DNA of 40,794 nt, taken from assembly GCA_027619225.1 (NCBI GenBank), contig JAQCFW010000017.1:1-40794 (forward strand), in the 5' to 3' direction. The stretch's first letter is position 1. Each line of letters starts with the position of its first letter. This document shows, piece by piece, positions 23,403 through 38,208 of this stretch. The notes beneath the pieces were generated by a model. That model saw only the letters and a list, made by a program, of their open reading frames with translations. It did no database searches and was not told the DNA's origin. Source of the stretch: Bacteroidota bacterium. Lineage in GTDB: Bacteria > Bacteroidota > Bacteroidia > Flavobacteriales_D > Sanyastnellaceae. The position numbers were made by a program, and so were the translations under genes.

Positions 23403-23490
23403 CCTTTCCACGATGTGATGCTGACAAACGTTGTGAAATTCTTAAATATTTTACTCAGTTGTGTGCATCTTGCAGTCTCTAGCGATACCC

Positions 23491-25950
23491 ATGCCTAAAA
23501 ACACCTCAACTAAAAAGAACCCCCGAACTGCCCATTGGAAAGTTCTGTTTTTCCTTGCGGGAATAAGCCCTCTTTTAGGAATATTAGCTCTGGTAGCTAT
23601 TGCTCGACTCGGCGACCTGCCAGACACGGAGGCACTCACAAACCCTCGAACAGATCTTGCAACAAAGGTTTATACCATGGACGGGAAGGTCTTAGGAAGC
23701 TATTATAACGAGAATAGATCAGACGCACGGTTCGAGGATTTACCTCAGCACCTTATAGATGCGTTAATTTCCACAGAGGATGTAAGGTTTTTCAGTCATG
23801 ATGGAGTTGATTTTTTCGGTTTGGGTAGAGCGATCGCCTTTTTAGGCAAAAGGGGTGGGGGTTCAACGATAACTCAACAATTGGCAAAGTTGCTTTTTAC
23901 AGAAGAGTATGAATCGACAAGCTTTTTAGAGCGGGCGGTTTTACAAAAACCCAAAGAGTGGATCATTGCGTCACGGCTAGAGAGCCATTACACGAAGGGT
24001 GAGATTATGGCGATGTATCTCAATAGATACGACTTTCTAAATCAAGCCGTGGGGATCAGGTCTGCTTCGACGATTTATTTTGACAAAGAGGTTGAGGAAT
24101 TAAATGTGGAAGAATGCGCGATGTTAGTGGGAATGTTGAAGAATAGCGCTCTATTTAATCCACTTCGCAGAATGGAGTTGGTGACAAACCGCAGGAATGT
24201 TGTTTTAAACCAAATGGGTAAATATGGGCTCCTATCCCCATCGATTCTCGATTCTATAAAAGCAAGGCCGATCACTTTAAATTACCAAAGAGTAAGCCAC
24301 GATGAAGGTGCTGCTCCATATTTTAGAGAGCGTTTGCGCGCAGAATTGAAGAGAGTTTTCTCGGAGAAAAACCCCAATGGTTCTTATGTTGTAAGTAAGG
24401 CCGATGGCTCTAAGTACAACATTTACAGAGACGGATTAAAGGTGCATACTACGATTGACAGTCGCATGCAACAGTATGCTGAAAACGCCGTTTCTACACA
24501 TTTAGGTGGAGAGCTCCAAGCAGCTTTTGACAGAGACTTGAAAAACCGCTCAAAACAAGATTACCCGTTTTTTGAGGGCATAGATCAAGAAGCAAAAAAG
24601 ACAATTATAGACATTGCAGTCCGTGATTCGGACAGGTATAAAAAAAGTCAAGGGAAGCTTTGTCCCGGTTGTAATAGACCCGCGTTTTACATCCGCGATC
24701 ACGCTTTCGAAGATGGGGCGAAAGGTTTCAAGTGTAAGCCAAATCACGGAGGATGCGGTAACACTTGGATGGGATTAAGTAAAAAGGATTTTAAAGCGGC
24801 TATGAAAAAGCCAGTAAAAATGAAGGTTTTCAGCCATTCTGGCCCACGAGACACATTGATGTCTCCCATGGATAGCATCATTCATCGCAAGAAAACGCTT
24901 CATGCCGCCCTACTTTCGATCGAACCCTCTTCAGGTCAAATCAAAGCGTGGGTTGGAGGCATTGACTATAAGTTTTTTCAATACGACAATGTAGACCAAA
25001 GCAGACGCCAGGTAGGCTCCACCTTCAAACCCTTCGTATACGCTACCGCCCTAAGAATGGGGATGAATTCCTGTGACGAATTGCCTAACCAAGTGACTTG
25101 TATAGACCTGCCTGAGGGGTATGACCCACCGATTTGGTGTCCACAAAACTCATCAGAAGATTATGGAGAAATAGTAACCTTAGAGTATGCCCTTGCGAAC
25201 TCAATGAACACCGTTACTGCAAAACTCATTAAAACGTTTGGTACCGATAGAGTGATAAAACTTGCGCACGCCTTAGGAATTAACAGCGATATTCCCAACG
25301 TGCCGTCTATAGCTCTCGGAGTAGCAGAACTACAGTTGAAAGAACTTGTTTCTGCTAATGCGGCTCTTGTAAATGGGGGGGTTTACGTTGAGCCCACCAT
25401 CTTAATAAGAGTAGAAGATAGATTTGGGAACACCATTTTTGAACCGAGCCCGGATATTAGACAAGGCCTGGATGAACTCACTGCTTACCGTGTAGTTCGC
25501 ATGATGAAAGGCGTAGTAGATGGGGCCTGGAATGAAGAACTCCAAAAAAGAATGGGAACAGGTGTTAGGCTCCGTTACGATTCCGACGCAAGAGATTATG
25601 ATGGAATCACAGCGCCTATGGCCGGGAAAACAGGAACGACCCAAAACAATACTGACGGGTGGTTTATGGGGCTTACACCAGAATTAGTAACGGGGGTTTG
25701 GGTAGGAGCGCAAGACCCCACAGTAAGATTTTCATCGACGCATTACGGTCAAGGTGCGAATACTGCCCTTCCTATTTATGGATTTTTTATGAAGGATACT
25801 TACGCAGATGAGAGCATCGGTCTTTCACAAGATGATTTTGCGAGGCCTGAGTCCTTGGGATCAGACACGTTAAATTGCAAAGACCAAGTCTCTATAAAAG
25901 GGCATACCTTCGATTCTGATGGATTCGATGATTCGGACCTGTTTAATTAA
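23491..25950 (+). CDS. Class A penicillin-binding protein (PBP1A type) with Cys4 insert
   Basis: An 819-residue bifunctional peptidoglycan synthase. It has a short cytoplasmic tail and one membrane helix (about 13-36). The glycosyltransferase domain has STEDVRFFSHDGVD (from 95) and GGGSTITQQLAK (about 123-134). The transpeptidase has S510-T-F-K513, S571-M-N573 and K713-T-G-T. Between the domains is an insert with C391-P-G-C394 and C415-x6-C422, the spacing of a zinc ribbon, which I do not expect in a standard PBP1A. The periplasmic location makes metal or disulfide both possible. The start at MPKNTSTKKN is chosen; a GTG at 23461 would add ten residues. Followed by the CoA-transferase genes. 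Confidence 0.92.
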   Translation: MPKNTSTKKNPRTAHWKVLFFLAGISPLLGILALVAIARLGDLPDTEALTNPRTDLATKVYTMDGKVLGSYYNENRSDARFEDLPQHLIDALISTEDVRFFSHDGVDFFGLGRAIAFLGKRGGGSTITQQLAKLLFTEEYESTSFLERAVLQKPKEWIIASRLESHYTKGEIMAMYLNRYDFLNQAVGIRSASTIYFDKEVEELNVEECAMLVGMLKNSALFNPLRRMELVTNRRNVVLNQMGKYGLLSPSILDSIKARPITLNYQRVSHDEGAAPYFRERLRAELKRVFSEKNPNGSYVVSKADGSKYNIYRDGLKVHTTIDSRMQQYAENAVSTHLGGELQAAFDRDLKNRSKQDYPFFEGIDQEAKKTIIDIAVRDSDRYKKSQGKLCPGCNRPAFYIRDHAFEDGAKGFKCKPNHGGCGNTWMGLSKKDFKAAMKKPVKMKVFSHSGPRDTLMSPMDSIIHRKKTLHAALLSIEPSSGQIKAWVGGIDYKFFQYDNVDQSRRQVGSTFKPFVYATALRMGMNSCDELPNQVTCIDLPEGYDPPIWCPQNSSEDYGEIVTLEYALANSMNTVTAKLIKTFGTDRVIKLAHALGINSDIPNVPSIALGVAELQLKELVSANAALVNGGVYVEPTILIRVEDRFGNTIFEPSPDIRQGLDELTAYRVVRMMKGVVDGAWNEELQKRMGTGVRLRYDSDARDYDGITAPMAGKTGTTQNNTDGWFMGLTPELVTGVWVGAQDPTVRFSSTHYGQGANTALPIYGFFMKDTYADESIGLSQDDFARPESLGSDTLNCKDQVSIKGHTFDSDGFDDSDLFN

Positions 25951-25960
25951 CCAGTGGAAT

Positions 25961-25968
25961 TAATTTAG
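25961..25968 (+). promoter_or_regulatory. -7-like element of scoA
   Basis: TAATTTAG, one mismatch from TAnnTTTG, ends 4 bases before the ATG at 25973. Confidence 0.4.
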
Positions 25969-25972
25969 AACA

Positions 25973-26686
25973 ATGTCAATTTCAAAATTAGTAAGCGGCG
26001 TAGAAGAGGCCTGCAGCGGTGTAGAAGATGGAATGACCTTGATGTTAGGCGGTTTCGGATTGTGTGGTATCCCGGAGAACTGTATTGAGCAGTTGGTTAA
26101 ACTTGAGGTTAAAGATGTGACATGCATTTCGAACAATGCGGGCGTCGATGGCTTCGGATTGGGAAAGCTGCTTAGTGGCCATCAGATTCGAAAAATGATA
26201 TCTTCGTATGTCGGAGAGAACGATGAGTTTGAACGCCAAATGCTTTCCGGCGAACTCGAAGTAGACCTTATCCCTCAAGGCTCACTTGCCGAGAGATGTC
26301 GTGCAGGTGGTGCAGGCATCCCAGCTTTTTACACTCCAGCTGGATATGGGACGGAAGTAGCGGAAGGGAAGGAGGTGAGAGAGTTTGACGGCAAGCCACA
26401 CATCCTAGAATCGGCCTTAACAGCAGATTTTGCCTTTGTAAAGGCGTGGAAAGGTGATGCCGCTGGGAATCTAATTTTCAAAGCGACCGCACGCAACTTC
26501 AACCCCATGATGGCAATGGCCGGAAAAATCACGATCGCAGAAGTAGAAGAACTCGTCCCACTGGGAGAGCTCGACCCGAATGAAATCCATACCCCAGGCA
26601 TCTTCGTCCAACGCATATTCCAAGGCAAGTCCTTCGAAAAGCGCATAGAGCAAAGAACCGTTCGTCCATTTAACTCGCCTTCTTAA
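25973..26686 (+). CDS. scoA: 3-oxoacid CoA-transferase subunit A
   Basis: A 237-residue subunit that pairs with the next gene to form succinyl-CoA:3-ketoacid CoA-transferase, moving CoA between succinyl-CoA and acetoacetate in ketone-body and branched amino-acid breakdown. The family signature is [14 protein letters not shown] near residue 27, followed by [15 protein letters not shown] and [20 protein letters not shown]. Length is normal. It has its own promoter-like box, and ten bases separate it from scoB. Confidence 0.94.
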
Positions 26687-26696
26687 ATAGTACACC

Positions 26697-27350
26697 ATGC
26701 TAGATAAAAACGGGATTGCAAGAAGAATTGCGCAGGAAGTAAGAGATGGATGGTACGTGAACCTCGGCATAGGAATTCCAACCCTTGTTGCCAACCATAT
26801 CCAAGAGGGTATGGAAGTAGAGTTCCAGTCAGAAAATGGAATTCTCGGCATGGGCCCATTCCCTATAGAGGGCTCAGAGGATGCTGATCTTATTAACGCG
26901 GGCAAGCAAACGATTACTGCGATGCCCGGAGCAGTTTATTTTGACTCGGCAACATCTTTCGCGATGATCAGAGGTCGCCACGTTCAGCTCACCGTTTTAG
27001 GAGCAATGGAAGTTAGTGCCAATGGTGATATAGCCAATTGGAAGATTCCCGGCAAGATGGTAAAAGGCATGGGTGGAGCGATGGATCTGGTAGCGAGTGC
27101 AGACAATATCGTTGTTGCAATGATGCACACAAATCGAGCTGGAGAATCTAAACTTCTGCCCACATGCTCCCTTCCATTAACGGGCGTGGGTTGCGTGAAG
27201 CGTGTGGTTACAAACCTTGCCGTTCTAGACATCAAAGACGGGGCGTTTCACCTTGTCGAAAGAGCGCCAGGAGTTTCCGTTCAGGAGATTATAGATGCCA
27301 CCGCAGGAGAGCTTGTCGTCCCTTCGGATGTCCCGGAAATGACGCTTTAG
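26697..27350 (+). CDS. scoB: 3-oxoacid CoA-transferase subunit B
   Basis: A 217-residue catalytic subunit. The nucleophilic glutamate that forms the CoA thioester is E46 in FQSENGILGMGP, and VNLGIGIPTLVANHI precedes it. The C-terminal SLPLTGVGCVKRVVTNLAV is also diagnostic. Length is normal. It is cotranscribed with scoA. The next gene, folB, runs towards it; the 33-base gap has a weak hairpin but no clear terminator. Confidence 0.95.
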   Translation: MLDKNGIARRIAQEVRDGWYVNLGIGIPTLVANHIQEGMEVEFQSENGILGMGPFPIEGSEDADLINAGKQTITAMPGAVYFDSATSFAMIRGRHVQLTVLGAMEVSANGDIANWKIPGKMVKGMGGAMDLVASADNIVVAMMHTNRAGESKLLPTCSLPLTGVGCVKRVVTNLAVLDIKDGAFHLVERAPGVSVQEIIDATAGELVVPSDVPEMTL

Positions 27351-27383
27351 ACCTACTCTTAAGAAAGAGTACAAAAAACTAGG

Positions 27384-27737
27384 TTAGCCATACATCACTA
27401 CAGCAACAGACTCACAGTCCCCTTCTATGGGCGGAGAAAGTTTTGTGAGTTTGAGTTCAATTGATTTTACCAATTTAAGCTCACGACGGAGTGATTTAAC
27501 GATGCGTCTTCCTACGTGTTCGATGAGCTTAGACGGAATAGCCATTTCACGCTCAGCAATTTGTTGGACCGCACAGTAATCTACCGTGTCCTCAAGTTTA
27601 TCAGATTCTCCACTCGCCCCCATATCGACCCCGAGTTTTATATCTATGCGGTACTCTCCCCCTATGGTAGTTTCTTCAGCCATACATCCATGATAGCTAT
27701 GAAACCTCAACCCGTTTACCTCTATAATCTCTTCCAT
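27384..27737 (-). CDS. folB: Dihydroneopterin aldolase
   Basis: A 117-residue enzyme that cleaves 7,8-dihydroneopterin to 6-hydroxymethyl-7,8-dihydropterin in folate synthesis. The opening IEVNGLRFHSYHGCMAEE contains the usual substrate-binding YHG, followed by DTVDYCAVQQIAERE and the late motif IELKLTKLSPPI with the catalytic-lysine position. Length is normal for a homo-octameric enzyme. It lies five bases after gltX on the same strand, and its start falls in the second copy of a 14-bp repeat. Confidence 0.93.
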   Translation of the reverse strand: MEEIIEVNGLRFHSYHGCMAEETTIGGEYRIDIKLGVDMGASGESDKLEDTVDYCAVQQIAEREMAIPSKLIEHVGRRIVKSLRRELKLVKSIELKLTKLSPPIEGDCESVAVVMYG

Positions 27738-27781
27738 AATTTCTATTCCTCTAACAATATATTCTCTATAATTTCTATTCC
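27736..27781. repeat. Duplicated 14-mer at the gltX-folB junction
   Basis: ATAATTTCTATTCC occurs at 27736-27749 and again at 27768-27781, a 32-base period. On the minus strand the first-read copy codes for part of the gltX C-terminus, and the second provides the gltX stop and all but the final G of the folB start region. Confidence 0.65.
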
Positions 27782-29287
27782 GTCATCGAGTCTTTCAAGG
27801 GTTTTTTCCAAACCCAGAAACGCTGCAAACTCAAACATGGACGGCCCGCCACCAGATCCAGTTAAAGCCAACCTAAAGGGAAGTAAAACCTGTCCGAAGC
27901 CCAGCGACTCTTTTTCCAAATGCGATTTAAAATTTGCCTCAATCTCATCTGCCTTAAACGGGTCTACCTGAGAGAGCATTGACTTTAAATCGCTCATGTA
28001 TCCCGCGGTCTCTGGCTTCCATTTTTTGCGAACCATCTTTCCGTCAAAATCTTCTTTTAAAGGAGCGCCGAAAAGCCACTTTGCATCTAACACTTCATGC
28101 AGAAAGGACACCCTTTCGAGCATTAGCCTCAGCACAACTTCCGCGTCCATTTCATTTAAGACTATGCCTTTTAAGCTTGCCATTTCCGTCAATGCAGGAA
28201 CGAGTTCAGCCGGCTGCTTAGCACGCAAGTACTGCTCATTAAACCAACGTGCTTTATCTGGACTGAAACGCGCACCGGACTTCACTACCTTGTCTAATGA
28301 GAAAATTTTAGCGGCCTCTTTTATGGTGAACAACTCCCTTTCATCTCCAGGATTCCAACCCAACATAAGCAACATATTTATAAAAGCTTCAGGCTCGTAA
28401 CCTCTTTCACGGTATCCGCTTGCGATGTTTCCAGTTTTAGGGTCTTTCCACTCAATTGGAAAAACGGGGAAGCCTCCTGCGTCGCCATCTCTTTTGCTGA
28501 GTTTCCCGTTTCCAGTGGGCTTGAGGATTAGGGAAAGGTGGGCAAATTTAGGAGCGTCCCAACCAAAAGCTCTGTATAACATGATATGTAAGGGAGCACT
28601 TGGTAGCCACTCCTCTCCTCTTATGACGTGTGAGATTTCCATTCTGTAATCGTCAACTACGTTTGCGAGGTGATATGTTGGAAGGCCGTCTGCCTTTACA
28701 AGTACTTTGTCGTCGACAACGGCGCTTGAGATCGTTATTTCTCCTCTTATCTCATCAGTGAAAGTGATGTCTTCAGCATTGTCTGGTGTTTTAAAACGAA
28801 TAATGTATGGGGTTTCTTGCTCTATAAGCGTCTCAACCTCTTCTTCACTCATTGATAAACTATTCTGCAAATCTCCTCGAGTAGATGCATCATATTGAAA
28901 AACGTTTTTCTCTGATTCCGCTTTCTTCCTGAGGGCGTCAAGCTCTTCGGGCGTATCAAAAGCCATGTACGCATGCCCCGAAATGAGAAGCAACTCCACC
29001 GCCTCACGGTAGAAGGCATTTCTTTCGCTTTGTCTGTACGGCTTAAACTCTCCCCCTTCGACAACCCCCTCATCAACCTCAATTCCACACCAATTTAGCG
29101 CTTCACGAACGTAGTCCTCAGCACCTTCAACATATCGAGTTTGGTCTGTGTCCTCTATGCGTAACAAGAACTTGCCGCCATGGGCGCGAGCAAACAAGTA
29201 GTTATAAAGGGCTGTCCTAACCCCGCCCATGTGGAGGGGCCCTGTGGGACTTGGGGCGAATCTTACACGAACGTTGCTTGTGGTCAT
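27743..29287 (-). CDS. gltX: Glutamate--tRNA ligase
   Basis: A 514-residue class I synthetase that charges tRNA-Glu. The HIGH-type motif is PSPTGPLHMGGVRTALYNYL near residue 12 and the KMSKS-type motif is KLSKRDGDAGG near 265. The substrate-binding segment RIEDTDQTRYVEGAEDYV is intact, and an anticodon-binding helical domain completes the C-terminal third. Length is normal. It leads the gltX-folB pair; a TACCTTCG box sits 22 bases upstream of the ATG, one of the few genes here with an ordinary short leader. Confidence 0.96.
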   Translation of the reverse strand: MTTSNVRVRFAPSPTGPLHMGGVRTALYNYLFARAHGGKFLLRIEDTDQTRYVEGAEDYVREALNWCGIEVDEGVVEGGEFKPYRQSERNAFYREAVELLLISGHAYMAFDTPEELDALRKKAESEKNVFQYDASTRGDLQNSLSMSEEEVETLIEQETPYIIRFKTPDNAEDITFTDEIRGEITISSAVVDDKVLVKADGLPTYHLANVVDDYRMEISHVIRGEEWLPSAPLHIMLYRAFGWDAPKFAHLSLILKPTGNGKLSKRDGDAGGFPVFPIEWKDPKTGNIASGYRERGYEPEAFINMLLMLGWNPGDERELFTIKEAAKIFSLDKVVKSGARFSPDKARWFNEQYLRAKQPAELVPALTEMASLKGIVLNEMDAEVVLRLMLERVSFLHEVLDAKWLFGAPLKEDFDGKMVRKKWKPETAGYMSDLKSMLSQVDPFKADEIEANFKSHLEKESLGFGQVLLPFRLALTGSGGGPSMFEFAAFLGLEKTLERLDDGIEIIENILLEE

Positions 29288-29424: not shown

Positions 29425-29772
29425 ATGAACGCATTGCGTAACAAAGTCCAATTAATTGGCAGATTAGGGCAAGACCCTAAGATCATCACCTTCGACGAAG
29501 GCAAGTCTAAAGTCAACTTTTCAGTGGCTACAAATGAATCCTACCGCGACAACGAAGGCGATAAAGTTGAGAGAACTCAATGGCACGAAATAGTTGCCTG
29601 GGGACCCCTGAGCGATATTATGGGTCAGTACTTGAAAAAGGGATCCGAAGTAGCGATAGAAGGCAGACTGCATTACAGAACCTACGACGATAAAGAAGGA
29701 AACACTCGTTATGTAACAGAGATAGTCGCAAAGGATCTTCTAATGTTAGACAAAAAACCTGCTGAAGTGTGA
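29425..29772 (+). CDS. ssb: Single-stranded DNA-binding protein
   Basis: A 115-residue OB-fold protein starting MNALRNKVQLIGRLGQDPKI. Other hallmarks are RTQWHEIVAWGPLSDIMGQY, KKGSEVAIEGRLHYRTYDD and the final strand YVTEIVAKDLLML. It lacks the glycine-rich linker and the acidic DDLPF-like tip that most bacterial SSBs use to recruit partner enzymes; the protein ends DKKPAEV. It may be a short paralogue rather than the main replication SSB. It is monocistronic, with a terminator directly after it. Confidence 0.93.
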   Translation: MNALRNKVQLIGRLGQDPKIITFDEGKSKVNFSVATNESYRDNEGDKVERTQWHEIVAWGPLSDIMGQYLKKGSEVAIEGRLHYRTYDDKEGNTRYVTEIVAKDLLMLDKKPAEV

Positions 29773-29809: not shown

Positions 29810-29922
29810 AAATCCGCTTGCTAAGCTGATTTCCTATCTCGTATATGCGAGTATTTTTTCAGGTTATTGACGGACTGATTATCACGATTCAGAACCGAAA
29901 AAAACAATTTTATTCTTAGATT

Positions 29923-30669
29923 TTATTTCTTAAATAGTTTTCTATACAACATCGTTACAGGGTCAAAATATCTATCCACTACTCTTTCTTTTAGTGGGAT
30001 AATCCCATCATCTGTAATTTGAATATCTTCAGGACATACTTCCGTGCAACATCGTGTAATATTACACATCCCCGAACCATGATCTTCCTTTATTGCAGGT
30101 ATTCTATCTGCATCATCCATAGGGTGCATTTCTAAACTAGCAAGTCGAATCATAAATCGTGGGCCAACAAATTTTTCCTTTGCATCCTGATCTCTAATTA
30201 CATGGCAAACATTCTGGCACAAATAACATTCAATACATTTTCTGAAATGCTGTGTTCTTTCCACGTCGACCTGTTGCATTACCAAGCCTTTTTCTGTATT
30301 GTTTTTATTTTGAGCTGGGGAAAATGGCTTGATTTTTAGGTTTTGTTTGTAATTCCAACTTACATCTGTTACTGTATCTTTTATAATTGGAAATGCTTTT
30401 AAAGGAGTAATCATAATAGTCTCGTCAGGGCTATATTCATTCATCCTTGTCATGCAAGCCAATTTGGGTCTCCCATTAATTTCCACACTACAAGAGCCGC
30501 ACTTGCCAGCTTTACAATTCCATCTGCAAGCCATATCGTTGGCATCATCTGCTTGAATTCGATGCATTGCGTCTAGCACTACCATCCCTTCAGTTACATC
30601 ACAATTGTAATCAACCAACTCACCTTTTGTATTGTCTCCTCTGTATATTTTGAATTTACGATTTCCCAT
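29923..30669 (-). CDS. sdhB: Succinate dehydrogenase iron-sulfur subunit (Sdh1-like)
   Basis: A 248-residue electron-transfer subunit linking the flavoprotein to menaquinone. Cysteine ligands for all three clusters are visible: CRWNCKAGKCGSC plus a later Cys for [2Fe-2S], CIECYLCQNVCH and CNITRCCTEVCPE for the others. Whole stretches (WNCKAGKCGSCS, ACMTRMNEYS, FRKCIECYLCQNVCHVIRD) look like the actinobacterial Sdh1 SdhB as I remember it, more than the usual Bacteroidota protein. It ends the C-A-B operon, two bases after sdhA. Base composition is AT-richer than most neighbours. Confidence 0.93.
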   Translation of the reverse strand: MGNRKFKIYRGDNTKGELVDYNCDVTEGMVVLDAMHRIQADDANDMACRWNCKAGKCGSCSVEINGRPKLACMTRMNEYSPDETIMITPLKAFPIIKDTVTDVSWNYKQNLKIKPFSPAQNKNNTEKGLVMQQVDVERTQHFRKCIECYLCQNVCHVIRDQDAKEKFVGPRFMIRLASLEMHPMDDADRIPAIKEDHGSGMCNITRCCTEVCPEDIQITDDGIIPLKERVVDRYFDPVTMLYRKLFKK

Positions 30670-30671
30670 AA

Positions 30672-32528
30672 TTATAGTTGTGATTTTCTTTCTTCAGCAA
30701 CCTCCGCTTCCAAATCTTCCAATGTTGCATTGGCTATTCTAAAAAGTTCCGCATTGGGTTCTTTCCGCTTTTCTTTAATCACTTGCATATTTCCGTCTTC
30801 CCCTTTTTTGGTAATGATATTATATTGACACCACTCCTCACTTTCTGTAGGGAAATCATCCCTTGTATGAGCCCCTCTACTTTCTTCCCTCATATATGCT
30901 GCCCTAGCAACCGCCTCAGAAGTAATCAATAAATTTCTCATGGCAAGCGCTTCATGCCATCCAGGATTAAACTGAGAAGAGCCATTCGCTTTTACATTTT
31001 TATTTTTTTCTTTTAAGTTTTCAATGTTTTGAATTCCTTTTTGTAATTCTGTATCCGTTCGGATAATGCCTACATTGTTTTGCATATTGTTTTGCAATTC
31101 CTCATGTAAAAGATATGGGTTTTCCCCTTCGTCTCTATTTAGAATACTTGTTGCGTTTCTGATAATTTTTTTAGCATCCTCTTCATTAAATTTTGGAACA
31201 GCCCCTAATTGTTTGGCGTAATTTGAAGCTCCCACTCCGGCTAAATCCCCAAAGACCAATAAGTCAGATAAGGAATTTCCTCCCAATCGGTTGGCACCAT
31301 GCATTCCTGCCGCACATTCCCCACAAGCAAAAAGCCCATCAACAGTGGACATAGTAGTGTCCGCCTCTACTCGAATTCCCCCCATAAAATAATGACATGT
31401 TGGGCCAACTTCCATTGGTTCTTTAGTAATATCTAATTCAGCAAGCACTTTAAATTGGTGATACATCGAGGGTAATTTCTTTTTAATATCCTCTGCGCTT
31501 CTTTGAGTCGCAATATCTAAATAAGCTCCTCCGTGTATGGATCCTCTTCCTGCTTTTACCTCTGCATTAATAGCTCTTGCAACGACATCTCTTGTAAGCA
31601 ATTCTGGCGGTCTTCTTGCATCTTTATCTCCCGCTAACCATCTGGCAGCTTCTTCTTCAGTATCGGCAGTCTCGTTTTTAAATTTCTCTGGGATATAGTC
31701 AAACATAAATCGTGTTCCTTCACTATTTTTCAGAATTCCACCCTCTCCTCTAACCCCTTCTGTTACTAATATCCCCCTAACTGATGGTGGCCAAACCATT
31801 CCGGTTGGATGAAATTGATTGAATTCTAAATCCATTAATTCAGCCCCAGCTTCATAAGCCATAGCGTATCCGTCTCCGGTATATTCCCAACTATTTGAAG
31901 TAATTTCCCAAGCTTTTCCTCCCCCTCCAGTTGCAAGAATTAAAGATTTTGTTTTGAAGATGATAAATTCTCCGGTATCTCTATACATGCACACAACACC
32001 AGCAATTTTCCCATTTTCATCTTTCAAAATATCCAAAGCGGTACATTCCATATGAATATCAATCCCTTGGTGTATTCCATAATCCTGGAGAGTTCTGATC
32101 ATTTCTAGTCCCGTTCTGTCTCCAACATGAGCAAGTCTTGGATATCTATGTCCCCCAAAATTTCTTTGGTTGATAAGCCCTTCTTTTGTTCTATCAAAAA
32201 CAGCCCCCCTTTGTTCTAATTCTATTACTCTATCGGCAGCATGTCTAGCGTGTAATTCGGCCATACGCCAAACATTCAACATTTTCCCTCCACGCACTGT
32301 ATCTCGAAAATGTATTTTCCAATGATCTCGTTTATCCACATTGCCAAGTGATGCAGCCATACCTCCCTCAGCCATTACTGTATGTGCTTTACCTAATAAA
32401 GATTTGCACACTAACCCAACTTTTTTGGATTCTTTGGTAGCTGTTATTGCAGCACATAAGCCAGCTCCTCCTGCTCCTATTACAAGAACATCAAATTCTA
32501 TCTGTCTTATTTCAGAAATATCTAACAT
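30672..32528 (-). CDS. sdhA: Succinate dehydrogenase flavoprotein subunit (Sdh1-like)
   Basis: A 618-residue catalytic subunit oxidising succinate to fumarate. The FAD dinucleotide fold VIGAGGAGLCAAITA opens it; the covalent-FAD histidine is in GKAHTVMAEGG. Active-site segments FNQFHPTGMVWPP, RDVVARAINAEVKAGRG, GPTCHYFMGG and NRLGGNSLSDLLVFG are present. Usual Bacteroidota SdhA proteins are longer (about 660 residues) and start differently; this one, with RMAELHARHA and SNSWEYTGDGYAMAYE, resembles the actinobacterial Sdh1 class. It sits between sdhC and sdhB with gaps of 10 and 2 bases. Confidence 0.94.
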   Translation of the reverse strand: MLDISEIRQIEFDVLVIGAGGAGLCAAITATKESKKVGLVCKSLLGKAHTVMAEGGMAASLGNVDKRDHWKIHFRDTVRGGKMLNVWRMAELHARHAADRVIELEQRGAVFDRTKEGLINQRNFGGHRYPRLAHVGDRTGLEMIRTLQDYGIHQGIDIHMECTALDILKDENGKIAGVVCMYRDTGEFIIFKTKSLILATGGGGKAWEITSNSWEYTGDGYAMAYEAGAELMDLEFNQFHPTGMVWPPSVRGILVTEGVRGEGGILKNSEGTRFMFDYIPEKFKNETADTEEEAARWLAGDKDARRPPELLTRDVVARAINAEVKAGRGSIHGGAYLDIATQRSAEDIKKKLPSMYHQFKVLAELDITKEPMEVGPTCHYFMGGIRVEADTTMSTVDGLFACGECAAGMHGANRLGGNSLSDLLVFGDLAGVGASNYAKQLGAVPKFNEEDAKKIIRNATSILNRDEGENPYLLHEELQNNMQNNVGIIRTDTELQKGIQNIENLKEKNKNVKANGSSQFNPGWHEALAMRNLLITSEAVARAAYMREESRGAHTRDDFPTESEEWCQYNIITKKGEDGNMQVIKEKRKEPNAELFRIANATLEDLEAEVAEERKSQL

Positions 32529-32538
32529 AATTATTTTT

Positions 32539-33381
32539 TTATACCCAAGTATTTAAATCTGTAATCACTCCCATTGAAACCAATCTGACATAAACATCAG
32601 AAAGCCCAACCCAAACTAAAGAACACCATGCAAACATTTGATGTCTTCTGTTTAAATAAGTCACAATTTTCCATCTACTATGTGAATGTTCTGCAGAATG
32701 TGAGCAAGAGAAACAATCCATTCTCCCCCCAATTAAATGTCTCAATGAATGACATCCAAAAGTATATCCTCCCAATAATATAGGGTTAATAAGCAATATA
32801 ATACTACCTACACCCACACCAAATTCTCCATCTCTAAAGAAGGCCATAACGGCATCATAAGAAAGAAGAAAAATAAATACTATGGCAAAATACATGGCGT
32901 ATCGGTGGATATTTTGAAACAATAAAACTCCTGTTTCTCCTTTATAGTCTTTTTGTGGGATACCTCCAACGGCACAAGCTGGCGGAGAAAATGTAAAGGC
33001 CCTGTAATATGCTTTTCTATAATAATAACAAGTAAATCTAAAAGATAAAGGGAAAATCAGAATGAGCCAAGCAGGAGAATGCCCAGGCAACCACCATAAC
33101 CAATTTGGCCACTCACCAAATAATGCATGAGATATTGGCGGAATTCCTTCTTTTGTAATGTCAAGAAAGAATGTTGGAGAATAAAATGGAGAGAGATATC
33201 CCCCAAAGCCTTCTGCATTTAAGGCTCCGCTCCACCAAAAATATTCTCCTTGCCAAGCTGCCCAAGTGGAATAAACTATAAATGAAAGGAGCCCAAAAAG
33301 CACTAACATAGGACTAATCCACCATCTATCTTCTCTCAAAGTTGAGAGAAAAGATTTCTCTCTTCCGATAACTTCTGTCAT
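32539..33381 (-). CDS. sdhC: Succinate dehydrogenase membrane anchor (Sdh1-like) with Cys/His cluster
   Basis: A 280-residue membrane subunit with about five or six hydrophobic helices. FTCYYYRKAYYRAF and SPPACAVGG are features I associate with the mycobacterial Sdh1 anchor. A compact Cys/His group, C210-H211, H215, C223, C226, H228, H232 and H234, follows a membrane helix (GSIILLINPILLGGYTFG). In mycobacterial Sdh1 a membrane-embedded Rieske-type [2Fe-2S] cluster has been reported; these residues are candidate ligands here, an inference. It is the first gene of the operon; an exact -7 element lies 18 bases before the ATG. A usual Bacteroidota anchor is shorter (about 225 residues). Confidence 0.88.
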   Translation of the reverse strand: MTEVIGREKSFLSTLREDRWWISPMLVLFGLLSFIVYSTWAAWQGEYFWWSGALNAEGFGGYLSPFYSPTFFLDITKEGIPPISHALFGEWPNWLWWLPGHSPAWLILIFPLSFRFTCYYYRKAYYRAFTFSPPACAVGGIPQKDYKGETGVLLFQNIHRYAMYFAIVFIFLLSYDAVMAFFRDGEFGVGVGSIILLINPILLGGYTFGCHSLRHLIGGRMDCFSCSHSAEHSHSRWKIVTYLNRRHQMFAWCSLVWVGLSDVYVRLVSMGVITDLNTWV

Positions 33382-33399
33382 ATTGTTTTTTTAATGCAG

Positions 33400-33407
33400 C
33401 AAAGATA
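33400..33407 (-). promoter_or_regulatory. -7 element of the sdhCAB operon
   Basis: TATCTTTG on the minus strand is an exact TAnnTTTG match, 18 bases before the sdhC ATG; an A-rich leader follows, unlike the leaderless pattern elsewhere. Confidence 0.5.
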
Positions 33408-33569
33408 ATACCTTTCAAAGTGTTTTTTTAATAATAAATAATTAAATCCGGCTGATTTCTTGAGAGAGGAGATGCTATGTGTCTAGAGACTTCAGCATTA
33501 CTAATATTGCTCGTATGAATAGAGAATTTCTCTCCTCAAACTTGACATCAAAGTAGAAGATTGATTTTC

Positions 33570-33622: not shown

Positions 33623-33988
33623 ATGAAGAATTTAATTTTTGTGGTTTTCAGCCTACTTTTAGTTACCAACATCTCTGCTCAGAAAAAAGCAGATGTTACT
33701 TTTGACGTAGGAGGAGTATGCGGGATGTGTGAAGAACGCATTGAAAAGGCATATGATGTTAAAGGCATCGTGATTGCTGATTATGATCTGGAATCACACA
33801 AGCTTCACGTCGTTTATAAAACGAAACATTTCCCTGACATCCTGGATGTTCATCGTCTCGCAGCGAATGTAGGGCACGATACAGATTTGATGAAAGCCTC
33901 AGACGAAGTCTATGCAAAAATTCATGGATGCTGTAAGTACAGAGTAGAAACTGAAACGCACAAATGTTCCGGGGATCACGAGCGCTAA
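33623..33988 (+). CDS. Exported HMA-like metal-binding protein
   Basis: A 121-residue protein with a signal peptide (1-19, ending NISAQ) and a ferredoxin-like HMA fold (about 23-85). The metal motif is GGVCGMCEERIEKA, a CxxC as in copper chaperones. A second cysteine pair, HGCCKYR, lies near residue 105, and the C-terminus HKCSGDHER adds more potential ligands. It is the first gene of a three-gene set ending in a TonB receptor, which suggests a periplasmic carrier of copper or another soft metal taken up or sensed at the outer membrane; the metal is not determined. Confidence 0.85.
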   Translation: MKNLIFVVFSLLLVTNISAQKKADVTFDVGGVCGMCEERIEKAYDVKGIVIADYDLESHKLHVVYKTKHFPDILDVHRLAANVGHDTDLMKASDEVYAKIHGCCKYRVETETHKCSGDHER

Positions 33989-34278
33989 TCGCGCTTTTAC
34001 TTATAGGATGTAAACCTATTGAAGCGATCACTTTCACAGCAAGAGGCTGTTGTCCTACCTGTGAGAAATATATTCTTGAGAGTGTTCAGATGGAAGAAGT
34101 CAAATCTGCTCAATGGGATCAGCACAGTGAAAAGGTCACCTTGAGATTTTACGCCAATGAAATTTCATTAGAACTGCTGCAGCATACAGTAGCCATGGCG
34201 GGTTACGATACAGACTTGTTTATGGCGCCAGACTCCGGTTATTTGGCCTTACCCAGATGTTGCCACTATAGAGATTAA
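33964..34278 (+). CDS. Second HMA-like protein, probable lipoprotein
   Basis: A 104-residue protein whose start overlaps the previous gene by 25 bases. The N-terminus MFRGSRALIALLLIGCKP has a lipobox (LIGC), so it is probably membrane-anchored. The HMA-like fold has the CxxC motif TARGCCPTCEKYI. Its end, AGYDTDLFMAPDSGYLALPRCCHYR, is clearly homologous to the end of the preceding protein (GHDTDLMKASDEVYAKIHGCCKYR), so the two arose by tandem duplication. The TonB receptor starts one base after its stop. A soluble/anchored pair passing metal to or from the receptor is an inference. Confidence 0.8.
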   Translation: MFRGSRALIALLLIGCKPIEAITFTARGCCPTCEKYILESVQMEEVKSAQWDQHSEKVTLRFYANEISLELLQHTVAMAGYDTDLFMAPDSGYLALPRCCHYRD

Positions 34279-34279
34279 C

Positions 34280-36670
34280 ATGAAGCTTTTACAACACCTC
34301 TACATACTCGTATTTATTGTCAGCTGGCTTGCGATGCCAAATATCAACGCACAGAAGCAAGTCAAAGGCAAAGTTCTTGCACCGGAATCTCATGTGGGTC
34401 ATGATCACGAAGAAGGCGAACACGAAGGGGAGGTAGTATATGAAATCCTTCCAGGAGCAACAGTGGTTTGGAAAGGAACGACAGTGGGGACGATGACTGA
34501 CCTTTTCGGGTTTTTTAAGCTGCCCGCCCTCAATCTCGGGGACACACTGCAGGTAAGTATGATAGGATATGAGACGGTGGGCCTCGTGTATACAGGATGG
34601 GATTATTTGGACATCCCGCTTGAGCCTGGAATTTTCTTAAATGAGGCACAAGTAGAAGCCAGAAGGTCTACGACTTCTATTTCTCTTCTCGACCCATTAA
34701 ATATCCAGCAGCTTAACAGGAAAGAACTTGCAAAAGCAGCGTGTTGCAACTTAAGTGAAGCATTCGAAACAAACGCTTCCGTTGACGCCTCTTTTACAGA
34801 CGCCGTTACTGGGACACGTCAGATTCGCATGTTGGGTCTGGATGGAAAATACACCCAGCTTCTCGTTGACAACCTTCCGGGACCACGTGGGTTAAATGTG
34901 GTACAAGGTTTGTCTTTTATTCCTGGGCCTTGGATAGATAACATTTCTATTTCAAAAGGAACGGGGTCGGTCATCAATGGCTATGAAAGCATCACAGGAC
35001 AAATCAATGTCGCGATGCGAAACCCAGAAAACGCAGAGCCTCTTCACATTAACCTTTATGTAAGTGGTGATGGAAGACTGGAATGGAATCACGTGAGTCG
35101 GCATCAAGTAAACAGGCGTTGGAGCACAGCTCTTTTGTCCCACGCTGAGCTAGGCACTGCGATCAATGACCGCAATGAGGACACTTTTCTCGACACACCT
35201 CTCAAACGCGATCTCGTCTTAAGGAATGAGTGGAAGTTTCGTGGAGACAGAGGCATTCGAGGTGAGTATGCCTTTTCTTCTGTCATGATGAACAGACTCG
35301 CAGGTCAAGCTTCGGCATACTCGGATTCACCTTTCGACCTTTTACAACCCTATTTAGAAGATACAGATTTTTCATCAGCTTGGACTGCAGCGACAAAGAT
35401 TTCTAGATTAGAAGCTTCGGCAAAAACGGGATTTGTATTCCCTGCAAAGTCTTGGCAATCGATAGGAACTCAATTTTTTGCATCGAGGCATTCGCAAGAA
35501 CATAAGTTTGGCAACAGGAGCTATGAGGGCACTGAAGATTATTTTAGGGGAAACATCCTCTTTTCTGGCATCATTAACAATACGGATCACAAATTTACCA
35601 CCGGCGTTAGTTTTGTGTATGACGATTTTAATGAGATCGGCACATGGGGTGCGGAATTCGACGAGTGGGACAGTGAAAATGACACGATTTCCCGCACAGA
35701 AATGGTCCCAGGGGCCTTCTTTGAATACACGTGGACCGCAGGAGAGCGCTTGGTGGTTGTTGCCGGACTAAGAGGGGATCACCACAACCTTTATGGAAAT
35801 TTTGCCTCACCTCGATTGCATGTTCGCTATTCACTTGCTGAGGAGACATCGATCAAACTCGTCGCAGGCCGTGGGTTCCGAACGGCAAATGTGTTTATGG
35901 AACAATTGGGATCTTGGGCGAGCAACAGACGTTGGGATATTCAAGAAGATTTGGCCCCAGAAGTAGCGACGAACTTGGGGTTGAACCTGGTGTCTAAATT
36001 CCGACTCAACTCGAGAGATGCTTCCCTTTCTTTGGACGGGTACTTCACCAATTTTGACAACAGAATCATTGTAGATCTATACAATTCTCCCCATGAGGTA
36101 AGTATCTACAATTTGAATAACTCTGGGGGATACCCGTCTCGCTCAAGCTCAACGACGGTTCAGTTGGAGTTCGATTGGTCTTTTCACAGGCGATTAGATA
36201 TCAGGGCTGCGTATAGATGGGTGGATGCGGTCACGGGCTATGCTTCAGGTGATTTTGATGCAGGGAATGGTTTTGAAATGCAGCAAGATCCATACGTTTC
36301 TAAGCACAGAGCGTTTACCCAATGGAGTTATGCGAGCAAAGCGTCAAAAGAAGGCAAGCAGACCAGAATTGATGCGACGGTACAATGGGTGGGGCCTCAA
36401 GCGCTACCAGTCCCAGGGGGCATGGCGTCAATGCATCCAAGTGTCTCTCCTTCATTTACCCAAGTGAATCTCCAACTTACTCAAGTTTTACCTGGAAATT
36501 TAGAGCTTTATATCGGGGTAGAAAATCTGACAAACGTGAAGCAGATGTCACCCATTGCCGGCACGAATGATGGAGGGCTAGACCTTGAGAATTTTGACGC
36601 CAGCCTTGTTTACGGACCTATTCTGGGCCGAATGTCTTATGCTGGATTAAGATGGACGCTGGGGAGTTAA
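34280..36670 (+). CDS. TonB-dependent receptor with His-rich loop, metal operon
   Basis: A 796-residue outer-membrane receptor. It has a signal peptide (1-24, ending NINAQ), then a carboxypeptidase-regulatory-like domain (about 26-120) carrying an inserted loop HVGHDHEEGEHEGE (38-51) rich in His and Glu, and a plug domain (about 140-260) with a Cys-Cys pair at C155-C156 (AACCNLSEAFETN). The barrel ends near 796. The Cys pair, His loop and two HMA-like genes upstream suggest transport of copper or a similar metal or its complex. This CC-containing receptor type next to HMA proteins is one I recall from other Bacteroidota. Convergent with the MiaE-like gene. Confidence 0.9.
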   Translation: MKLLQHLYILVFIVSWLAMPNINAQKQVKGKVLAPESHVGHDHEEGEHEGEVVYEILPGATVVWKGTTVGTMTDLFGFFKLPALNLGDTLQVSMIGYETVGLVYTGWDYLDIPLEPGIFLNEAQVEARRSTTSISLLDPLNIQQLNRKELAKAACCNLSEAFETNASVDASFTDAVTGTRQIRMLGLDGKYTQLLVDNLPGPRGLNVVQGLSFIPGPWIDNISISKGTGSVINGYESITGQINVAMRNPENAEPLHINLYVSGDGRLEWNHVSRHQVNRRWSTALLSHAELGTAINDRNEDTFLDTPLKRDLVLRNEWKFRGDRGIRGEYAFSSVMMNRLAGQASAYSDSPFDLLQPYLEDTDFSSAWTAATKISRLEASAKTGFVFPAKSWQSIGTQFFASRHSQEHKFGNRSYEGTEDYFRGNILFSGIINNTDHKFTTGVSFVYDDFNEIGTWGAEFDEWDSENDTISRTEMVPGAFFEYTWTAGERLVVVAGLRGDHHNLYGNFASPRLHVRYSLAEETSIKLVAGRGFRTANVFMEQLGSWASNRRWDIQEDLAPEVATNLGLNLVSKFRLNSRDASLSLDGYFTNFDNRIIVDLYNSPHEVSIYNLNNSGGYPSRSSSTTVQLEFDWSFHRRLDIRAAYRWVDAVTGYASGDFDAGNGFEMQQDPYVSKHRAFTQWSYASKASKEGKQTRIDATVQWVGPQALPVPGGMASMHPSVSPSFTQVNLQLTQVLPGNLELYIGVENLTNVKQMSPIAGTNDGGLDLENFDASLVYGPILGRMSYAGLRWTLGS

Positions 36671-36685
36671 ATAGAAGGGCAGAAG

Positions 36686-37309
36686 CTATCCGTGCATGGT
36701 TTCTACAATCCCGTATCGTTTGATGACTTCTCCTTCGAAATCAAGAAATTTCTGCCACCTCGCATCGACATCGATGTCGCCTCCATATTTTCTGGCAAAC
36801 TTCAGGAAGGTCGTGTAGTGGTGAGCCTCAGAGATCATTAACTCTCTGTAAAATTTAACGAGATCGGGATCGGTAAGTTTTTCTGCCAACAGTCGGAAAC
36901 GTTCGCAACTTCGGGCCTCGATCATCGCAGAAAAAAGCATCCTGCTTACGAGTTGATTTTCTTTTGACCCGCCCTCACTCAACATATACTTATATAACTC
37001 TCCCACGTAATTGTCTTTGCACTCATACTGAAGCTTCACGCCCCTGTCTTTCATTTTCTCAAGTACCATATCGAAATGCTCGAGCTCTTCAATTGCAATC
37101 TTCGTGAGCGCTTCTACCAAGTCCGTGTGCATCGGGAACTTGGTGATGACACTGATGGCATTTGATGCGGCTTTCTGCTCGCACCAGGCGTGATCATTTA
37201 GAATGGAGTTGATGTTGCTTTCGCAAAGCTTGGCCCATTTCTCATCCGTCGCGAGTCTTAACCCCAGAAGAACCTTTTTTGCCTTCTCGTACTTTTCAAT
37301 TTCTGACAT
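36686..37309 (-). CDS. miaE: tRNA-(ms2io6A)-hydroxylase MiaE-like diiron protein
   Basis: A 207-residue ferritin-like protein. Diiron ligands appear in four helices: ...DHAWCEQKAA, EELEHFD, EARSCERF and EAHHYTTF. MiaE hydroxylates the isopentenyl group of modified adenosine 37 in tRNAs. In Bacteroidota, proteins of this family are annotated as MiaE, but whether this organism makes the substrate nucleoside is not shown by the window. It follows the methyltransferase gene by 12 bases on the same strand, so the two RNA-modification genes probably form an operon. Confidence 0.88.
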   Translation of the reverse strand: MSEIEKYEKAKKVLLGLRLATDEKWAKLCESNINSILNDHAWCEQKAASNAISVITKFPMHTDLVEALTKIAIEELEHFDMVLEKMKDRGVKLQYECKDNYVGELYKYMLSEGGSKENQLVSRMLFSAMIEARSCERFRLLAEKLTDPDLVKFYRELMISEAHHYTTFLKFARKYGGDIDVDARWQKFLDFEGEVIKRYGIVETMHG

Positions 37310-37321
37310 CTGAATGATTGG

Positions 37322-38194
37322 CTATAGTTCTACCCTTATCAAAGAACCTGTGGAAAGCAAATGTCCATCACTCGCCTTCAAACAGAGCTCTCCACACTCA
37401 GTGGAAGCATTTGGCAACACCCTGCGCCAAAGTGTCTCCAGTGTAGAGGGAGGAAGTCCAGAGTAGGTATTCATCACGATAAACCCGTCGGGCTCGACCA
37501 CTTGGGACACGAGTTCAACGATTTCTACCAAGCTGTGCTCTAGTTTCCATTTCTCGTTTTTCGGACCGAGTCCCCATGTCGGAGGATCGAGAACCACTCC
37601 GGAATATTTGTTCCCCCTTTTTACTTCACGGCGAAGAAATTTCAGCGCATCTTCTACGACCCATCGGATTCCGGTCAAACCACTCAGCTCCATATTCACG
37701 CGTGTCCAATCGATGACTTGCCTGATTGCATCGACATGCGTGACGTCTGCACCGGCGCTTTTTGCCGCAAGACTGGCCCCTCCGGTATATGCAAAGAGAT
37801 TGAGGAGTTTATCTCCCTCTTTGATTTTGCCTGCGATGTACTCCCAATTGCAAGATTGTTCTGGAAAGATGCCTATGTGCTTAAATTGCGTCGTTTCAAG
37901 GTTAAACTTAAGCCGAAGTGAAGGATGTTCTTCGGATTTGTATTCTAAGTTCCAGCTGTTTGGGACCTTTCCGTTTTGCTTCCAATACCCCGCAGCTTTA
38001 CTCGTGGATTCAAAGCTAGAATGGGCTTTATCCCATTCTTTGAAGGATTTCTTTCTATCCCAAACGGCACTCGCTTCGGGCCTGTCGAGGACGACTCCAC
38101 CGAACTTCTCTAGTTTGGCTCCCTCACCAGAATCGAGCAACTCATAATCCTTCCAAGTGTCGGCTACAAACCTTTTTATTTTGTGTGATCCCAT
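37322..38194 (-). CDS. RlmI-like SAM-dependent RNA methyltransferase
   Basis: A 290-residue class I methyltransferase of the 23S rRNA cytosine-5 type (RlmI/RlmK-like). The SAM site is LLNLFAYTGGASLAAKSAGA followed by VTHVDAI; the catalytic region VVLDPPTWGLGP is the DPP motif of this family. It lacks the N-terminal PUA domain of E. coli RlmI, so it is a shorter variant whose exact target is unknown. The start MGSHKIKRFV at 38194 is preferred over a TTG at 38203 because a -7-like box ends six bases before it. Confidence 0.85.
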   Translation of the reverse strand: MGSHKIKRFVADTWKDYELLDSGEGAKLEKFGGVVLDRPEASAVWDRKKSFKEWDKAHSSFESTSKAAGYWKQNGKVPNSWNLEYKSEEHPSLRLKFNLETTQFKHIGIFPEQSCNWEYIAGKIKEGDKLLNLFAYTGGASLAAKSAGADVTHVDAIRQVIDWTRVNMELSGLTGIRWVVEDALKFLRREVKRGNKYSGVVLDPPTWGLGPKNEKWKLEHSLVEIVELVSQVVEPDGFIVMNTYSGLPPSTLETLWRRVLPNASTECGELCLKASDGHLLSTGSLIRVEL

Positions 38195-38200
38195 ATGATG

Positions 38201-38208
38201 CAAAGGTC
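38201..38208 (-). promoter_or_regulatory. -7-like element of the methyltransferase gene
   Basis: GACCTTTG on the minus strand, one mismatch from TAnnTTTG, ends 6 bases before the ATG at 38194. Confidence 0.4.

Follow-up and report, generated by a model that had tools for sequence, protein, structure and literature searches.

The window analysed here is a stretch of 40,794 nucleotides from a Bacteroidota genome, in which the reading frame at 32539-33381 was taken by an earlier note to encode SdhC, the membrane anchor of a succinate dehydrogenase. A compact group of cysteine and histidine residues near the end of one hydrophobic helix led to the proposal that part of the group holds a membrane-embedded Rieske-type cluster of the kind known from mycobacterial Sdh1. 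The locus raises three questions: which kind of succinate dehydrogenase is encoded, which residues might bind such a cluster, and how the operon came to stand where it does.

The operon encodes a class F complex II

The interval 32539-33381 is open on the minus strand, its plus-strand translation being stop-ridden, and it is the first of three adjacent genes on one strand in the order sdhC-sdhA-sdhB:

32539..33381, minus strand: sdhC, class F membrane anchor, 280 aa (open reading frame; best PDB match 7d6v_C)
30672..32528, minus strand: sdhA, flavoprotein, 618 aa (NCBIfam PRK07803, 942.4 bits, cut-off 819; best PDB match 7d6v_A)
29923..30669, minus strand: sdhB, iron-sulfur protein, 248 aa (NCBIfam PRK12386, 398.5 bits, cut-off 256; best PDB match 7d6v_B)

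Inspection of the neighbouring genes found no second anchor gene beside these three, and a single membrane subunit is encoded. All subunits find their best PDB match in M. smegmatis Sdh1 (PDB 7D6V/7D6X). For SdhC, 7d6v_C is the sole phmmer match at E up to 1 (E 1e-54), while 7d6v_A and 7d6v_B score 743.7 and 328.7 bits against SdhA and SdhB, with runners-up at 348.1 and 81.7 bits. Because this structure lies far ahead of the others for all three subunits, the attribution to a mycobacterial Sdh1 kind of enzyme holds at the level of the enzyme. As described in an excerpt of PMC10238741, 7D6V is a class F complex II, a class characterised by one membrane subunit that contains a Rieske cluster within the membrane. 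By sequence similarity, the window enzyme is assigned to this class.

At E up to 1, SdhC matched 0 Pfam families, a Rieske domain included, and had no NCBIfam match, TIGR02046 included. In this it is unlike the classical Rieske proteins of bc1/b6f, with which it would share the predicted cofactor type only. A conventional class B (haem) enzyme whose anchor has diverged might be considered, since congeners carry the conventional enzyme in the same slot (see below), but the absence of any TIGR02046 or Pfam match and a sole PDB match to class F make this scarcely credible.

The Cys/His group and the candidate Rieske ligands

The group consists of C210, H211, H215, C223, C226, H228, H232 and H234, all of which are found at the SdhC positions reported for them, within 25 residues, on translation of the minus strand. 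Eight of the 15 Cys/His residues of SdhC thus lie inside residues 210-234, and since only 47 of 100,000 residue shuffles were as dense, the clustering is beyond chance. As judged by hydropathy, the stretch begins right after hydrophobic segment 187-205, as the earlier note had it, but then enters a polar loop (206-254, with six Lys/Arg and two Asp/Glu) and lies mostly beside the membrane, not in it. The loop probably faces the cytoplasmic, SdhB side.

We compared 34 SdhC rows in an alignment of the window, M. smegmatis, loci from Flavobacteriales, Marinimicrobia, Omnitrophota, Gemmatirosa, Nocardia and Nonomuraea, and other genomes. Same-place repeats (L001, L017, L021, L037, L039, L040 and L042-L045), L011 (65 residues from the N-terminus) and L062 (a fragment containing a stop) were left out, and the rows L008 and L041 come from one gene of a single genome, each covering a part of it. 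Seven residues are invariant in this set:

33028..33030, minus strand: codon of C118, Cys in 32 of 32 rows reaching the position
32974..32976, minus strand: codon of C136, Cys in 32 of 32 rows
32905..32907, minus strand: codon of H159, His in 33 of 33 rows
32749..32754, minus strand: codons of C210 (Cys in 32 of 33 rows, X in the remaining row) and H211 (His in 33 of 33)
32737..32739, minus strand: codon of H215, His in 33 of 33 rows
32641..32643, minus strand: codon of H247, His in 32 of 32 rows

All seven (three Cys and four His) are also present in M. smegmatis, where they are numbered C114, C132, H155, C206, H207, H211 and H240; this is enough for a cluster with two Cys and two His ligands. 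The alignment to mycobacterial SdhC, proposed by the earlier note as a check, gives a divided answer: seven Cys/His residues are common to both proteins, but five of the eight in the compact group (C223, C226, H228, H232 and H234) differ in M. smegmatis. Part of the group, namely C210, H211 and H215, may thus contribute to a cluster site, but the group does not stand as a conserved site, and C118, C136, H159 and H247, which make up the rest of the invariant seven, lie outside it. On this alignment, it is made up of three core residues and a lineage-specific loop.

The density of the group and the invariance of three of its eight members would both fit a Rieske site formed by C210-H234 itself. 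We regard this as very unlikely, given the four invariant Cys/His elsewhere, the absence of C223/C226 in M. smegmatis, Nocardia, Nonomuraea, Gemmatirosa and the genome G198, and the variation of H228, H232 and H234 (His in 5, 9 and 10 of the 34 rows, respectively) even among rows that have both cysteines.

In our preferred reading the Rieske ligands would instead be two Cys and two His among C118, C136, H159, C210, H211, H215 and H247, and these seven residues should converge on the SdhB side of the membrane. By analogy with 7D6V, electrons from succinate would pass to FAD in SdhA, from there to the three iron-sulfur clusters of SdhB, and on to a Rieske-type [2Fe-2S] cluster in SdhC and then to quinone, with no haem in the path. 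The original 7D6V paper reportedly found activity to be lost when two His ligands were changed. Within the aligned part, nine M. smegmatis Cys/His residues differ in the window SdhC (H65, C74, C79, H85, H138, H178, C209, H219 and H223); if any of these were a ligand, the mapping of ligands onto the window protein would break, and conservation of the 7D6V ligands would follow only if they belong to the seven shared residues.

The window SdhC has four hydropathy segments above the cut-off, and a low-confidence AlphaFold2 model has five long helices, where the class F criterion is six. This model, built from 10 sequences, reached a mean pLDDT of 48.7 and a pTM of 0.45, and was set aside as structural evidence on account of the former value.

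A clade-specific CxxC insertion

Two of the residues that differ from M. smegmatis form a motif of their own:

32704..32715, minus strand: C223-x-x-C226, the CxxC of one clade, lying in an insertion of four residues (27 of 34 rows have both Cys, five lack CxxC and two are cut short)

The five rows without CxxC (M. smegmatis, L018, L019, L020 and L022) have a four-column gap instead. The motif is present in the Flavobacteriales, Marinimicrobia and Omnitrophota rows and absent in the organisms listed above as lacking C223/C226. Within the clade that bears it, both cysteines are kept in 27 of the 27 rows that reach them, across three named phyla. The class F enzymes of Marinimicrobia and Omnitrophota have the same seven invariant residues and the same CxxC as the window, but their SdhC proteins are only 56-71% identical to it and stand in other neighbourhoods in the loci seen.

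Such retention, in a loop adjoining the invariant C210/H211/H215, could point to a further metal site or a pair of redox-active thiols in addition to the Rieske cluster. We find this possible but unlikely: no further SdhC Cys/His co-varies with CxxC, and a comparison of Cys conservation in SdhB, which has 12 conserved cysteines, found no Cys pair accompanying it, so that a full metal site is not evident. From sequence, a structural or thiol role for the CxxC is equally likely as a metal site.

Class F replaces the haem enzyme in two genomes of the genus

The genome of the window (G000) comprises 49 contigs, of which the window is contig 13; it measures 2.03 Mb, is 97.32% complete and has one class F SdhC and one SdhA. 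No TIGR02046 SdhC was found in this 97.32% complete genome, and class F is the only succinate dehydrogenase found in it. This is unlike most mycobacteria, which carry both Sdh1 and Sdh2 according to an excerpt of PMC7447783.

Across the 14 genomes of the genus, TIGR02046 (the haem b558 SdhC) occurs in 12 without class F, and class F in two (G000 and G110) without b558. For the second case, G110, the assembly is 70% complete and the contig breaks off in sdhC; a search of this partial genome found no SdhA. Among the 114 genomes of the family, class F occurs in two, TIGR02046 in 98 and both in none; neither SdhC type was recovered by these searches in 14, most of them incomplete, but one of which (G076) is 94% complete.

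More widely, class F was found in at least two genomes (G000 and G198, the latter of another class) of an even draw of 395 from the phylum, for many of which only some first-look candidates were scored. It was also found in 5 of 52 genomes of another Flavobacteriales family (that of G508), in 18 of 199 of the G509 phylum (one being a fragment with a stop) and in 2 of 145 of the G510 phylum. No TIGR02046 was found in the ten genomes behind loci L002-L011, for which completeness is not given. A literature search returned, by title, no earlier report of class F enzymes in Bacteroidota.

The genome G198 carries its class F operon (L035:9148-12653), without CxxC, together with a TIGR02046 SdhC, and the tree places the class F proteins of this genome with Gemmatirosa (support 100).

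The displaced operon has left a scar

TIGR02046 gene neighbourhoods were examined in 10 of the 12 b558-bearing congeners. In all ten loci the b558 sdhCAB operon follows gltX, with a called ssb between them in seven, and in nine it is followed by a homologue of the small protein at 33623-33988; the tenth contig (L026) breaks off within sdhA. In the window these neighbours recur in that order, but the class F operon between them stands in the orientation opposite to b558 sdhCAB. The gltX and ssb names are by reading only, while the TonB receptor and MiaE of the right flank were confirmed in Pfam. The relevant features are:

29425..29772, plus strand: left neighbour of the slot, ssb-like (open reading frame and congener loci)
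33494..33556, plus strand: scar, the last 20 codons and stop of a displaced haem-type sdhB (tblastn and blastn against congener operons)
33623..33988, plus strand: right neighbour of the slot, a small Cys-containing protein (congener loci; no Pfam match)

The two operons thus share slot, gene order and presumably reaction, but differ in orientation and anchor family, and their SdhA and SdhB are only distantly similar. The sdhB scar sits between the class F sdhC and the right neighbour and is 89.9% identical over 89 bases of DNA to the b558-bearing congener G101. At the same junction, G110 has three remnants, from sdhA, mid-sdhB and the sdhB end (L034:482-819). The scar and the G110 remnants are direct evidence that a haem-type operon once stood in the slot, and the haem b558 sdhCAB appears to have been displaced there by the class F operon.

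The remnants in G110 are longer than that in the window, as if less eroded. A second small Cys-containing protein, at 33964-34278, is related to the one at 33623-33988 and has a counterpart at this position in G110 (77% identical); tblastn searches of the nine other congener loci covered recovered only the first copy as its relative (27-32% identity). This protein shares its two genomes with the class F operon.

Origin of the class F operon

Similarity to the class F operons of the G508 family delimits the incoming DNA:

29908..33458, minus strand: imported segment, approximate extent (set by where blastn similarity to class F operons from a second Flavobacteriales family stops)

Over the three genes and some 60-77 bases upstream, DNA identity to these operons is 84-89%. 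The proteins are 92-95% (SdhA), 93-96% (SdhB) and 85-96% (SdhC, partial lengths for G513, G515 and G516) identical. The Pgk of the window, in comparison, is 93% identical to that of G110 but only 50-55% to those of four G508-family genomes (no Pgk was found in the fifth, G515), and 42-45% to those of Marinimicrobia-phylum genomes. Together with the b558-type enzyme of the congeners, the closer Pgk match to Flavobacteriales supports placing the window genome in Bacteroidota, and probably in Flavobacteriales. The gap between Sdh (85-96%) and Pgk (50-55%) identities points to transfer between families. In a three-protein tree, the Flavobacteriales class F copies fall together (support 100), with G873 of the Marinimicrobia phylum as nearest outgroup (support 86); branching within them is weak (support 53-89), G110 contributing 160 residues only. 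The G508 family is the probable donor, and the operon would have come from, or be shared with, that other family.

Proteins left of the slot (23461-29287) are nearest to G101 (91-98%), and those to the right (34280-38203: the TonB receptor, MiaE and the protein at 37325-38203) are nearest to G113 (94-99%). These mosaic flanks suggest recombination around the slot. A genome in 49 contigs with such flanks might also raise suspicion of an assembly or binning artefact, but a single contig carries the operon, the scar and the native flanks, and in a second assembly, G110, the same junction likewise has a class F SdhC alongside remnants of the old operon particular to that genome, which makes an artefact exceedingly improbable.

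A single inherited swap for the window genome and G110 was considered but is not borne out by the trees: the flank tree pairs G110 with the b558-bearing G101, and the class F tree fails to unite G000 and G110 (support 53-56).

Discussion

We hold with considerable confidence that the window encodes a class F succinate:quinone oxidoreductase with a Rieske cluster in SdhC, its ligands lying among the seven invariant residues, and that this enzyme, as the sole Sdh of its genome, displaced b558 sdhCAB, having come from a different Flavobacteriales family or being common to both. The class F kind itself is already known from M. smegmatis Sdh1; what is new is a CxxC-bearing subclade of it and the replacement, in the same slot and with a scar left behind, of a haem succinate dehydrogenase by one of the Rieske type.

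On a more ambitious reading, which we think rather doubtful, the class F enzymes with CxxC in Flavobacteriales, Marinimicrobia and Omnitrophota would have, next to the Rieske cluster, an additional redox or metal centre or else a thiol switch by which the passage of electrons to quinone is adjusted, and the operon would at the same time be a lineage-hopping cassette able to displace the haem enzyme fully. The CxxC provides a concrete residue pair for testing.

The Rieske-type enzyme, known structurally from mycobacteria, is also present in a small number of Bacteroidota genomes and spreads horizontally. With menaquinone as acceptor the oxidation of succinate runs uphill, and di-haem enzymes are believed to use the proton potential for it via membrane-spanning haems (as set out in part of PMC7447783). 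The change from a haem enzyme to a predicted haem-free type, in the same slot and among close relatives, is a natural experiment on the need for the haem path, and if this lineage uses menaquinone, comparison with the congeners would make the drive for the uphill step in class F testable.
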